This document shows, piece by piece, positions 1,313-13,549 of a stretch of 22,401 nt of DNA. Source of the DNA: a virus. The DNA lies in the IMG/VR virus record IMGVR_UViG_3300025137_000328, positions 1 through 22,401 of that record. One strand, 5' to 3'. The notes under the pieces are model-generated. The model saw only the letters and a program-made list of their open reading frames with translations, was not told the origin of the DNA and made no database searches. Within the stretch, counting starts at the first letter, position 1, and every line of letters starts with the position of its first letter. The position numbers and the translations under genes were made by a program.

Positions 1313-1340
1313 GCAACTTTTCTGTTGCGAGGAAAGTTGC
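1313..1340 (-). terminator. hairpin at the 3' end of the tmRNA gene
   Basis: Perfect 8-bp arms GCAACTTT (1313-1320) and AAAGTTGC (1333-1340) enclose a 12-base loop that itself contains GTTGC, able to pair alternatively with the left arm. It lies about 20 bases after the tag stop codon. No T-run follows on the minus strand, so it may be a late tmRNA pseudoknot/stem or processing signal rather than an intrinsic terminator. Confidence 0.35.
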
Positions 1341-1615
1341 CAACCCCAGAGTTTAGTGGACTAGGCCGCTAATCTCAATTCAGATGTGCTTGTTGGCATT
1401 ACTACCAAGTCAGCAAATCTTAATGCTTTTTTGTTTGCATTTAAAAACTGGCCGTTACCCCGTACCATTGGAAGCTCTCCACAAACTTTTAGACGTCAAT
1501 CGATACCATTACACCCCCGAAAGGGATTACATAAGCCACCTGCCTAGTCATGGTGGAGGTGACCGGAGTCGAACCGGTGTCTTGCCCGTTTATTACTTTT
1601 GCTTCAACAAACTTA
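1313..1615 (-). ncRNA. ssrA: permuted two-piece tmRNA
   Basis: On the minus strand the acceptor piece comes first: a T-arm ACCGG-TTCGACT-CCGGT followed by CACCTCCACCA with CCA at 1551-1553. After about 32 intervening bases the 5' end of the coding piece follows, GGGGGTG at 1512-1518, which pairs with CACCTCC of the acceptor piece (7 bp with one G-U); next comes GGTATCGATTGACG, like the conserved tmRNA GGATTCGACGG region. P2-like pairing is visible: GTCT and GTTTGT in the coding piece match AGAC and ATAAAC in the acceptor piece. The tag frame opens at resume codon GCA (1436-1438) and ends at TAG (1361-1363): 25 residues, beginning ANKKALRFAD and ending ELRLAA, a protease-type degron. This order, acceptor before coding half, is the circularly permuted form known from alphaproteobacteria. 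tmRNA rescues stalled ribosomes and tags their products. The outer limits are approximate. Confidence 0.9.
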
Positions 1616-1620
1616 ACAGT

Positions 1621-1649
1621 ATTTAAACACAGGTTGACCAAAAAGTCAA
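1621..1649 (-). promoter_or_regulatory. candidate tmRNA promoter
   Basis: The minus strand shows TTGACT (1644-1649), a 17-base spacer, and TTAAAT (1621-1626). Transcription would start near 1614, giving an acceptor RNA of about 64 bases up to the CCA at 1551, a sensible size for a permuted tmRNA. The element overlaps the oppositely directed promoter of the bL12 operon. Confidence 0.55.
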
Positions 1650-1662
1650 ACTGTATTATAAT
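1634..1662 (+). promoter_or_regulatory. promoter of the 89-aa / 40-aa / bL12 operon
   Basis: TTGACC (1634-1639), a spacer of exactly 17 bases, and a perfect TATAAT (1657-1662) form a near-consensus sigma70 promoter. The start point would fall at about 1669, at the ATG (1668-1670) of the first gene, so the transcript would be essentially leaderless. Its -35 box and that of the tmRNA promoter form an inverted repeat (TTGAC-CAAAAA-GTCAA, 1634-1649). Confidence 0.7.
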
Positions 1663-10050: not shown

Positions 10051-11058
10051 ATGGCTTATATCACAACTGATAATTTAACACACATAATGGCAGAGATGAC
10101 TGATTACTGTAATGCGGCCTGTCCTTTGTGTCAAAGATATGATTGGAATCTTAATTTGTCAGAAACAGTCAATAAGAATCACACAACTTTGCAGTTTGTA
10201 AAAGAGAGAATTGGTAATACCATTATAGCCCAACTTGATACATGGATGTGCCAAGGCACCTATGGTGATGCCACAATGAATCCTGAAACTGTTGAAATAT
10301 TTTTATATCTACGAGAAGTAAATCCAAACATTAGAATTGAAATGTGGAGTAATGGTGGAGCCAGAGATGCACAGTTTTGGCAGAGAATGGCCGAACTAAA
10401 AGTTAATGTAATTTTTGGTATTGATGGTTTAGAAGATACTAATCATTTATATAGAAGAAATGTTAAATGGTCTCATCTAATTAGAAATGTAAAAAGTTTT
10501 ATAGACAATGGTGGAAAAGCCACTTGGAGTTTCCTAATATTTAAACACAATCAACATCAAGTACAAGAGGCAACACAGTTATCAAAAGAAATAGGGTTTA
10601 CTCATTTTGAATCAAACTTTAGCGAACGTTGGCAAGACTTTAATAGTGCAGGTGAATATAGAGACATTGAAACAATTACAGTTGACGATTACAAACTTGA
10701 AAAGCCTGAACAACCTAAAGACTTTATAAAACATACAGGAGACGTTGTTCTAAGCAAAAATACAATGCACGAAGAAACAGATGATTTCTTAAGTAAAAAA
10801 ATACAATGTGATTCATGCTTACCAAGAAAGAAACAAATATATCTAAGAGCCAACGGTTATGTGAGTCCGTGTTGTTTTTTAGGAGATGTTGAAGTAAATG
10901 AACCTAAAAATATTATTAATGATTACAAACAAATTAATTTAAATTATACAAGCCTACAAGAAATATTAAATGGTGAATATTTCTTTGATCTTTATCAAGG
11001 TATAAATGGCAGTGAAAAAAGATTAAGAAGCTGTTATAATATGTGTGGAGTAAACTGA
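10051..11058 (+). CDS. radical SAM protein 1, with C-terminal SPASM/twitch-like Cys cluster
   Basis: In this 335-aa protein the radical SAM signature CxxxCxxC is C20, C24, C27 (TDYCNAACPLCQRY), binding the [4Fe-4S] cluster that cleaves S-adenosylmethionine to a 5'-deoxyadenosyl radical. A Gly-rich SAM-binding segment (MCQGTYGDATMNPE near 67-80) and IEMWSNG and FGIDGLEDTNHLYRR segments follow as in the TIM-barrel core. C-terminal cysteines C253, C256, C274, C275, C328 and C332 look like a SPASM/twitch auxiliary cluster domain, typical of peptide- and protein-modifying enzymes. It is the first of three coupled radical SAM genes; its TGA overlaps the next ATG. The substrate is unknown. The start at 10051 keeps the usual short lead before the motif, although no ribosome binding site is visible. 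Confidence 0.9.
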   Translation: MAYITTDNLTHIMAEMTDYCNAACPLCQRYDWNLNLSETVNKNHTTLQFVKERIGNTIIAQLDTWMCQGTYGDATMNPETVEIFLYLREVNPNIRIEMWSNGGARDAQFWQRMAELKVNVIFGIDGLEDTNHLYRRNVKWSHLIRNVKSFIDNGGKATWSFLIFKHNQHQVQEATQLSKEIGFTHFESNFSERWQDFNSAGEYRDIETITVDDYKLEKPEQPKDFIKHTGDVVLSKNTMHEETDDFLSKKIQCDSCLPRKKQIYLRANGYVSPCCFLGDVEVNEPKNIINDYKQINLNYTSLQEILNGEYFFDLYQGINGSEKRLRSCYNMCGVN

Positions 11059-12242
11059 TGCCAATTGAATGTAAACTTGTAAAGCTAGGATTAAATTTAG
11101 ACATGAGTGGTATGGTTCAACCTTGTAATGTCGCTACTAATGAAAGCATTTGTAAAAAAGAAAATGGTAGCAACTATAATTTATTGAACGATGACATACA
11201 AGAAATTTGGAATAGCAAAAGCAGAAAAAAAATAATTGAAGATCATAAAAATGATATCCGTACACCTTTGTGTAAAAATTGTTGGGAACCAGAAGAAGCT
11301 GGCATTAAAAGTCCTAGACAAATTTATAATGAAAAACTTGCTGATTTAGAAGTTTTAGAAAATCAACCTAGGATAATGATTGTCAAGCCTGGTAATCTTT
11401 GTAACAATGCTTGTAGAAGTTGTAATGCTCATACCAGTAGTATGTGGTACAAAGATGATCATAAACTTAATCATCAGGATAAAGATTTTAAAACATACTT
11501 AAAATTTTTCCATCCACATAAGTTTGCATACAAGGACAATAAATTGTTGGAACAAAGACTTGCCGAATGGGAAGATGGAATTGTTTTATGGGATATGTAT
11601 GGTGGTGAGCCAATGATAATACCTTTAAATTTTAAAATATTAGACCAAGCAGTTGTAAACAAAAATGCTAAAACCAAAGACTTTAATATACATTCTAATG
11701 GTATGATTTATAAAGATGATCTAATAAAAAAATTATCTAAATTTAAACACTCAAATTTTGCCATAAGCATAGATGCCACAGGCAAAAAAAATGACTATAT
11801 TAGATATGGAAGTAAATGGAATAACATAATCTCTAATTTAAAAAAGTATATTGAAGATGCTAAACAATATCCTAATGTGTGCTTAGAAGTTAGGATAACT
11901 TTAACACCTCTAAATTTATATCATTATGATGAAACAGTTGCATTTTTTAAAAGTATAAATGTAAGAGCTGTTGGTTTATGGTGTGACGACGAACCTTGGA
12001 ACGATGTAAGATACCTACCAACTAACATTAAACAAAAAGTAATCACTAAATGGAGAAAAACACAAGATAAAGATTGGTTAAAAGAAGTTAACAAATATGA
12101 AAAATGGCTTATGACAGAACCTAATGACTATAATGGTTTGCAAAATTCGTTTATTGAATTTAATAAAAAATTAGATAGTGTAAGAAACGAAAAATTTAAT
12201 GAAGTGTTTCCAGAATACTCAAAACTTTTTGAGGAAGTTTAA
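11058..12242 (+). CDS. radical SAM protein 2, N-terminal twitch type
   Basis: The ATG at 11058 overlaps the previous stop (TGATG) and is preferred over an in-frame GTG at 11043. The 394-aa product has an inverted arrangement: an auxiliary-cluster region comes first (C23, C32, C72, C75; LNLDMSGMVQPCN and LCKNCWEPEEAG), then the radical SAM core with C115, C119, C122 (GNLCNNACRSCNAH) and the GGEP SAM-binding motif (182-185, WDMYGGEPMIIPL). FNIHSNG and FAISIDATGKKNDYIRYGSKW complete the barrel. This matches the family of radical SAM proteins with an N-terminal twitch domain. Those enzymes are of unknown function; related SPASM/twitch proteins modify peptides. The reaction here cannot be told from sequence. 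The gene is locked between the other two by one-base stop/start overlaps. Confidence 0.9.
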   Translation: MPIECKLVKLGLNLDMSGMVQPCNVATNESICKKENGSNYNLLNDDIQEIWNSKSRKKIIEDHKNDIRTPLCKNCWEPEEAGIKSPRQIYNEKLADLEVLENQPRIMIVKPGNLCNNACRSCNAHTSSMWYKDDHKLNHQDKDFKTYLKFFHPHKFAYKDNKLLEQRLAEWEDGIVLWDMYGGEPMIIPLNFKILDQAVVNKNAKTKDFNIHSNGMIYKDDLIKKLSKFKHSNFAISIDATGKKNDYIRYGSKWNNIISNLKKYIEDAKQYPNVCLEVRITLTPLNLYHYDETVAFFKSINVRAVGLWCDDEPWNDVRYLPTNIKQKVITKWRKTQDKDWLKEVNKYEKWLMTEPNDYNGLQNSFIEFNKKLDSVRNEKFNEVFPEYSKLFEEV

Positions 12243-13549
12243 TGGGAATTAGTAAACAACCACCAAAATTATTTCCTTTAGCAAACAAAGGAGTGGCGTG
12301 TCAATTAAAGTGGACACACTCAACAGTGTACCTCACAGATGGAGTATCTGCCAGCTGTCACAAGGCGGGCTTTGGCAAGTACGACACAAAAGGTGATGTG
12401 CTAAACTTTCATAACATCCCCAACAAGCTAGAAGATAGAAGAAAAATGTTGAAAGGTCAATGGCCAGGTAATGGATGTGAACACTGTAAACACATCGAAG
12501 AAGCCGGAGGCAAGTCAGATAGACAGATACACTTAAAATTGGAAAACACCACAGCTCCACCAGAACTTGATACTGATTTAGAAGCTGTTGATGTAACGCC
12601 AAGACAGCTTGAAGTATACTGGGGCAACACCTGTAATCAAAAATGTATATACTGTGCGGCTCATTACAGCAGTCAGATACACCAAGAAGAAAAACGTTTT
12701 GGTAGATTTAACAAAGATGGAGTAGTGCTTGATTATGATCATTTTAAAGTAAATCCAAACATAGAACGTGATACTGAATTATTATTCAAATGGTTTGATA
12801 AAAACATACACAAATTACATAAGCTCTTTATATTGGGCGGTGAGCCTTTTTTACAAAAAGAAACTTTTCGAATGATTGAATACCTAGAAAAAAGAGACTT
12901 ACCTGATTTGACTTTAGTATTTTTCAGTAATCATAATGTTGAACATGAAAGATTTAAAAATTGGGTTGGGAGATTAGATAAACTTGTGAAGTCGGGTAGA
13001 TTGGACAAATTACAAATTACTGGTTCGTGTGATGCTTGGAACCAAGAAGGAGAATATGTAAGGACAGGACTTGATTTAAAATTGTTTCAAAAGAACTTTG
13101 AATATGTGTTATACAACACAGATACTTTACAACAAATTAATTCAGCTTTAACAGCCACAGCAGTTCCAGGAATGCCAGCAATGGTCAAACTGATAAATCA
13201 TTGGAGCAAGACAAGGCCAGTGTATTGGTCAATGACCAAAGCGGCAAACAGAAATGACGGACATCGTGCCTATCTGTATCCAGGAATATTTGGTGGTGCA
13301 GTAAACAATTGGGGACTACAAGAAGCAGTAGATTTATTTGATGTAACTGTAAATGGACATCCTGATAGTGTTAAAGTTTTACATAAAGAATTTATGCAAG
13401 GCAATATAAAAGAATTTGATTCGGTTGACCCAGATTTAATAAGACAAAAACAATTAAAAATTTATTTGAAAGAATTGGATAGAAGGCGTAATACTGATTA
13501 CACAAAAATATATCCAGATACTATTGCTAAATTTTTAGATAAAGTTTAA
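12242..13549 (+). CDS. radical SAM protein 3, N-terminal twitch type
   Basis: The start overlaps the previous stop by one base (TAATG). The 435-aa protein has the same order as its neighbour: N-terminal cysteines C20, C39, C79, C82 (CEHCKHIEEAGGKSDRQ, close to the CKNCWEPEEAGIKSPRQ of protein 2), then C131, C135, C138 (GNTCNQKCIYCAAHYSS) and GGEP at 199-202 (LFILGGEPFLQ). The radical SAM core and one auxiliary [Fe-S] site are therefore both predicted. A clear core-level resemblance to protein 2 suggests duplication followed by strong divergence. The role is presumably consecutive or joint modification of one substrate with proteins 1 and 2. The gene ends exactly against the stop of a convergent minus-strand gene, with no terminator between. 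Confidence 0.9.
   Translation: MGISKQPPKLFPLANKGVACQLKWTHSTVYLTDGVSASCHKAGFGKYDTKGDVLNFHNIPNKLEDRRKMLKGQWPGNGCEHCKHIEEAGGKSDRQIHLKLENTTAPPELDTDLEAVDVTPRQLEVYWGNTCNQKCIYCAAHYSSQIHQEEKRFGRFNKDGVVLDYDHFKVNPNIERDTELLFKWFDKNIHKLHKLFILGGEPFLQKETFRMIEYLEKRDLPDLTLVFFSNHNVEHERFKNWVGRLDKLVKSGRLDKLQITGSCDAWNQEGEYVRTGLDLKLFQKNFEYVLYNTDTLQQINSALTATAVPGMPAMVKLINHWSKTRPVYWSMTKAANRNDGHRAYLYPGIFGGAVNNWGLQEAVDLFDVTVNGHPDSVKVLHKEFMQGNIKEFDSVDPDLIRQKQLKIYLKELDRRRNTDYTKIYPDTIAKFLDKV

Follow-up and report, generated by a model that had tools for sequence, protein, structure and literature searches.

In the two-piece tmRNA of Alphaproteobacteria (RF01849, RF04321) an acceptor half ending in CCA precedes the coding half, the pieces share a 7-bp acceptor stem with the G3.U70 pair and an inter-piece P2, and the coding half has a TAAATGC-A resume region, a tag ending in AA and a 3' hairpin with GCAACAGAA. 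All of these are found in the gene described here. It differs from the alphaproteobacterial form in its match to the cellular model (60 bits, versus mostly 175–240 bits in the order sampled) and in the length of its tag (25 aa versus 9–10 aa).

Phages are also known to encode tmRNAs, and 79 bacteriophage sequences are held in the tmRNA database (PMC11915505). Those of mycobacteriophages Bxz1 and Wildcat and of Bacillus phage G are one-piece, listed without being marked as two-piece, and DS6A has a tag-less, tRNA-like domain only (PMC4131195), whereas the gene described here is permuted and has a full tag. Permuted, alpha-like tmRNAs are known from T4-like marine phages, namely Melnitz, a phage of a gammaproteobacterium (PMC9004378), and the Pelagibacter phages Mosig and HTVC008M. 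Mosig and HTVC008M differ in their short ARAGORN tags and in their position in the tree, and the tmRNA of Melnitz carries a glutamine riboswitch in its 3' domain, while the glnA riboswitch family is absent from our Rfam matches in the window up to E = 1. Since phage two-piece tmRNAs (Melnitz, Mosig; PMC9004378) and the 79 database entries were available before, the kind is already known; new here are the conserved 22–25-aa phage tag of the lineage and the recurrent divergent bL12 neighbour.

The window analysed, 22,401 bases long, is a whole IMG/VR virus record with phage genes for NrdA, NrdB, a tail-spike-like protein, virion structural proteins and an exonuclease. Its NrdB shares 64–65% identity with the NrdB proteins of HTVC008M and Mosig and is roughly as close to those of cyanophages. 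Judging from the sequence comparisons below, we consider it highly likely that the locus is a complete, full-length permuted tmRNA gene of a T4-like marine phage, which is under selection and performs ordinary trans-translation with host factors.

Architecture of the permuted gene and its predicted promoters

Both covariance models match the window on the minus strand: tmRNA_permuted (RF04321) at 1613–1406 with 90.6 bits (gathering score 47, E = 1.4e-16) and alpha_tmRNA (RF01849) at 1653–1310 with 60 bits (gathering score 50, E = 1.8e-14). A permuted tmRNA is also called, independently, by ARAGORN, which reads the tag ANKKALRFADLVVMPTSTSELRLAA*. A first-pass annotation, made from the letters of this DNA, had proposed a phage-borne, circularly permuted two-piece tmRNA and had named the alpha-tmRNA model as a check; the proposal is strongly supported by the two matches above gathering, by ARAGORN and by the covariation described below. 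Matches to L20_leader and snoZ267 in the window are under the gathering score and were taken as chance.

The acceptor half occupies about 1614–1551 (minus strand; placed by the cmscan start at 1613 and by covariation). It begins with the 5' P2 strands, followed by the T-arm ACCGG-TTCGACT-CCGGT (1578–1562), the acceptor 3' strand CACCTCC (1561–1555), A73 and the CCA at 1553–1551, the last base being the end predicted by the first-pass annotation. The T-loop TTCGACT is of the tRNA type; it is GGCAGTA in 13 of 31 relatives. A 32-nt internal transcribed spacer (1550–1519, minus strand) lies between the CCA and the acceptor 5' strand and would be expected to be removed during processing. The coding half (1518–1313, minus strand; cmscan and ARAGORN) comprises the acceptor 5' strand GGGGGTG (1518–1512), a D-loop read from the sequence as TAATGGTATCGA, the P2 strand (1499–1493 and following), the tag frame and the 3' hairpin. 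The tag frame runs from the resume codon GCA at 1438 to the stop TAG ending at 1361, as assigned by ARAGORN and by its codon pattern. The hairpin GCAACTTT..AAAGTTGC (1313–1340, minus strand) encloses the alpha-tmRNA motif CCT.GCAACAGAA, recognised with RF01849; its stems vary in sequence, with complementarity kept in most relatives. The order is thus permuted, with the CCA-bearing acceptor half upstream of the coding half and every part on the minus strand. The first-pass annotation had given the same order on one strand and left the strand unstated. Its lower bound of 1313 is exactly where the conserved hairpin ends; its upper bound of 1662 has to be drawn in, because 1615–1662 is not tmRNA and holds two overlapping promoter-like sites that point apart.

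The core of the spacer, GGTGGCTTATGTAATCCCTTYC, is common to most family members, even where the T-arms and P2 diverge, and it was found in no fetched locus outside the family. In the precursor, the GGTGG of the spacer and the CCACC at the acceptor end could form base pairs.

The predicted tmRNA promoter is of the sigma-70 type and covers 1649–1621 on the minus strand (TTGACT at 1649–1644, a 17-nt spacer and TTAAAT at 1626–1621). In 29 of 31 family members an exact TTGACA is followed by a -10-like hexamer ending 40–43 nt before the T-stem. TTGACT-17-TTAAAT stands at the same place in the window and in its 97% relative L064, where it was read from the sequence and the automatic scan favoured another site. 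This position predicts an RNA start at about 1614; the cmscan match, beginning at 1613, agrees with it. A second promoter-like site, TTGACC-17-TATAAT (1634–1662, plus strand; 11/12 in the consensus scan), overlaps the first and would serve the plus-strand genes. Of 30 members, 14 show the TTGAC..GTCAA arrangement, though for most a promoter on the opposite strand falls short of significance. At 1634–1649 the two divergent promoters have interleaved -35 elements, so polymerase may bind in only one direction at a time.

Covariation of the two halves in a phage family

The T-arm/acceptor/spacer pattern, sought in 2.9 million viral contigs, was present in 110 stretches. When part of the tag frame alone was sought, 38 stretches were found, and their tags all belong to one family; an acceptor half can be made out in each except 3, which end at a contig edge. 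After removal of duplicates the family has 34 distinct members in IMG/VR phages, counting the window, and most of them occupy the same locus. The acceptor region is usable in 31 of the 34, and 23 distinct ungapped tRNA-like domains entered the covariation analysis. Searched with blastn against 50,697 phage records, the tmRNA gene gave only short matches of ~30–45 nt around the T-arm and acceptor, and 8 kb of a relative gave no match in phage records.

GGGGGTG (1518–1512) pairs with CACCTCC (1561–1555) at 7/7 positions, the G3.U70 wobble among them, just as the first-pass annotation had paired them. The acceptor strands are 7/7 paired in 31 members, where the alanine identity pair G3.U70, together with the CCA, is invariant (31/31), pair 5-68 is GC, TA or CG, and pair 6-67 is TA or GC.

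Covariation of the halves in related phages had been set as a further check, and it is found. Over P2a, T-stem and acceptor, 96.1% of cells are paired in the 23 domains versus 43–50% when the partner is slid and 75.0% on shuffling. Changes on both sides are seen in 12 of 18 pairs and amount to 80 cells, against 7–12 in the slid and 23.7 in the shuffled control. They affect all 6 pairs of P2a, which joins the halves and was placed at a fixed distance from the T-stem and D-loop, and 2 of the 7 acceptor pairs, the other 5 being constant; the strands were located partly through their own pairing, a procedure somewhat biased towards the acceptor stem. P2 duplexes with their own partner have a mean energy of -14.1 kcal/mol versus -11.5 kcal/mol for swapped partners (permutation p = 5e-5), with shared descent remaining in both the covariation and the P2-swap controls.

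The P2 proposed by the first-pass annotation, GTCT/AGAC with GTTTGT/ATAAAC, is indeed the minimum-energy duplex of the window, but it is not the helix that covaries in the relatives. As the conserved P2 it is displaced by CAA/TTG with ACG/CGT, that is, ACG..CAA (1589–1582) paired with TTG.CGT (1499–1493). The GAC of the proposed AGAC is an invariant linker in 23 of 23 domains.

The folding energy of the window tmRNA as a single sequence is not unusual (z = -0.56), so the structural case stands on homology and covariation. This ordinary energy counts against our explanation, as does the RF01849 score of 60 bits, far below the cellular 175–240 bits. Other sequenced phages do without a tmRNA, which we also count against it. 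We conclude from the comparisons that the window tmRNA is very probably functional. The family is also a natural source of compensatory changes within a two-piece tRNA-like domain.

In one member, L242, the T-arm, acceptor, spacer and D-loop are as in the window, and P2 and the upstream part are as in L239; it is an apparent recombinant within the tmRNA gene.

The tag peptide and the proposed mechanism

The family tags read AN.KALGFADLTVGMSELRLAA or a close variant and are 22–25 aa long (25 aa in the window, L064, L114 and L010). Parts of codons 1–10 are fixed by the tag scan, so the fair test of selection is codons 11–22. There pN/pS is 0.37 (20 distinct 22-codon tags), and 6, 2 and 11 of 12 columns vary at codon positions 1, 2 and 3, respectively (p = 0.001 for third positions). 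In four members found without the tag requirement pN/pS is 0.27 over all codons. The frame ending in AA, noted in the first pass, is also what ARAGORN reads, with an RLAA end. RLAA terminates 23 of 23 distinct tag peptides, and L, V, I or M followed by AA ends 41 of 43 ARAGORN tags from a wider set of phage tmRNA loci. By its codon pattern, the tag frame evolves like translated sequence, and the open frame with the hydrophobic AA end is selected as a protein.

The RNA might alternatively be a decoy or inhibitor, acting chiefly by titrating host SmpB, EF-Tu or ribosomes and thereby lowering host trans-translation; the tag-less, tRNA-like form of DS6A does resemble a tmRNA-inhibiting molecule (PMC4131195; PMC11915505). 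Such a role needs neither an intact tag frame with a translated-type codon pattern nor the RLAA end, and both are kept here, which makes it very unlikely.

We suggest that the gene acts in ordinary trans-translation, by a pathway whose steps are taken from established tmRNA biology. Transcription from the sigma-70-type promoter would give a single precursor of acceptor half, spacer and coding half, from which host RNase P and 3' processing enzymes would cut out the spacer, the processed pieces remaining paired via the acceptor stem and P2. The CCA end would be charged by host AlaRS, and host SmpB would bring the charged tmRNA to stalled ribosomes, which would resume at GCA, append ANKKALRFADLVVMPTSTSELRLAA and terminate. 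The RLAA end would then mark the product for ClpXP-type proteases. The phage would probably benefit by keeping ribosomes recycling while infection yields truncated mRNAs. The architecture, inter-piece covariation, alanine identity pair, tag selection, synteny and lack of SmpB in the relatives searched are read from the genomes themselves; expression, processing, charging, use of SmpB, proteolysis and the benefit are what we infer. Phage control of ribosome rescue is plausible and would fit the selection on structure and tag.

The tags share the conserved core KALGFADLTV, and this conserved middle exceeds what the RLAA degron alone requires, a point that we also count against our explanation. 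The core was not found described in the literature searched, which covers part of the literature only, and tblastn of a 22-aa tag against phage records gave no match, weak evidence for so short a query. A long tag could give host or phage proteins another fate, through an adaptor, a protease or amino-acid recycling, with this as the selected benefit instead of ribosome release. The tag core is absent from the sampled Alphaproteobacteria, cellular tags in the order sampled have 9–10 aa, and recycling of tagged host proteins has been proposed for Melnitz (PMC9004378). However, the conservation of codons 1–10 is partly built in by the search pattern, and such tagging adds to trans-translation and does not replace it. 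As the selected benefit we therefore regard it as quite unlikely and retain ribosome rescue by trans-translation. The family makes it testable whether phages gain from the rescue itself or from the tag.

Long tags occur in other phage permuted tmRNAs too (for example ATQRDSMRKNNVLAFVPRFVAPMQMAA, AEKADTFDFTAMSFTGNTVSGKSKVALAA and ANLKASGNVTFVDFKAKLPTNEQVFALAA; loci such as L048, L049 and L117), so the lengthening may be a wider phage trend.

Gene neighbours, origin and host class

Divergent from the tmRNA on the plus strand lies a gene for an 89-aa protein (1668–1937), which has no match in Pfam or PHROG and has homologues near the tmRNA in 22 family loci. Homologues of ORF 985–1254 are found near the tmRNA in 21 family loci and NrdB in 20. 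The recurrence of these three marks the tmRNA as an established part of this phage lineage.

Two genes along on the plus strand, likewise divergent, is the gene for ribosomal protein bL12 (L7/L12; 2072–2437; PF00542, E = 7.5e-25; PF16320, E = 7.1e-12). A bL12 gene adjoins the tmRNA in L112, L113, L114, L318 and L340 and also in the more distant L117/L118, L119 and L121; many bL12 contigs have no tmRNA, and two carry both, far apart. bL12 is a possible functional partner of the tmRNA, as judged by this adjacency, which was not found described in the literature searched, itself a part of the literature only. Genes for bL12 have been described in phages, and one such protein entered 70S ribosomes when tested in E. 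coli (PMC6375957); tmRNA is unmentioned in that paper, and here bL12 is divergent beside one. The neighbour ties the tmRNA to the known habit of phages of carrying exchangeable ribosomal proteins (PMC6375957). One may go further and propose that tmRNA and bL12 form a ribosome-takeover cassette in several phage lineages, with the tag giving a non-host fate, so that host rescue is replaced and not supplemented. If so, tagged products might meet another protease adaptor, for example, or phage proteins might be spared. We hold this unlikely and keep to trans-translation with host factors.

SmpB was found in none of 18 phage records, among them the 172-kb relative G003, the complete HTVC008M and Mosig, in a search that included positive controls; host SmpB would therefore be used. 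In the 172-kb relative (L114/G003), which carries the tmRNA, the Rfam tRNA model detects no tRNA gene; its tmRNA therefore does not belong to a tRNA cluster.

In the tree the family is one phage-only clade (support 0.977), and its neighbour is another phage tmRNA group; the tmRNAs of Mosig and of two bL12 phages group with cellular tmRNAs. The alignment is short and structurally uneven, host sampling is partial and the tree is midpoint-rooted, so it shows separation and not the direction of transfer. The nearest cellular bL12 sequences, ~50% identical to the phage protein, come from marine alphaproteobacterial genomes. In the order of one of these genomes alpha_tmRNA matches 115 of 150 genomes, nearly all at 175–240 bits. 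Of 30 loci fetched, 18 have the tag ANDNRLAIAA, 9 have ANDNRLALAA and three have variants; cellular tags there have 9–10 aa and are mostly the 10-aa ANDNRLA(I/L)AA. Across 385 sampled Alphaproteobacteria genomes the best match of the window tmRNA is 30 nt long, and the phage tag pattern is absent from an equally large sample of this class.

These comparisons bear on a further alternative, a decaying ssrA recently captured from a host, for instance at an attachment site. The ssrA gene is a common integration site, and capture has been suggested for Melnitz (PMC9004378). Against such a passenger stand the same neighbours across phages, the covariation and the selection on the tag, the phage-only clade, the lack of a close copy in the 385 genomes, and the lack of a recognised integrase among the scanned window proteins (several short ORFs lay outside the scan). 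We consider it extremely improbable. By these sequence matches, with hosts partially sampled, the window tmRNA has no close cellular match and is not a recent host capture. The phage-only clade, the covarying halves and the family's own conserved tag turn a feature of few isolates into a lineage-wide selected trait.

The first-pass annotation had also taken the permuted form to point to the host class. The alpha-type gene and the NrdB, nearest to HTVC008M and Mosig, speak for this, but this tmRNA lineage is confined to phages and stands well apart from the cellular tmRNAs sampled. Melnitz infects a gammaproteobacterium and yet has an alpha-like tmRNA, so reading host class from tmRNA type is unsafe; we regard the type as a weak pointer.

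Elsewhere in the window, a run of three radical-SAM genes occupies 10051–13549 on the plus strand; two of them have SPASM-type domains.
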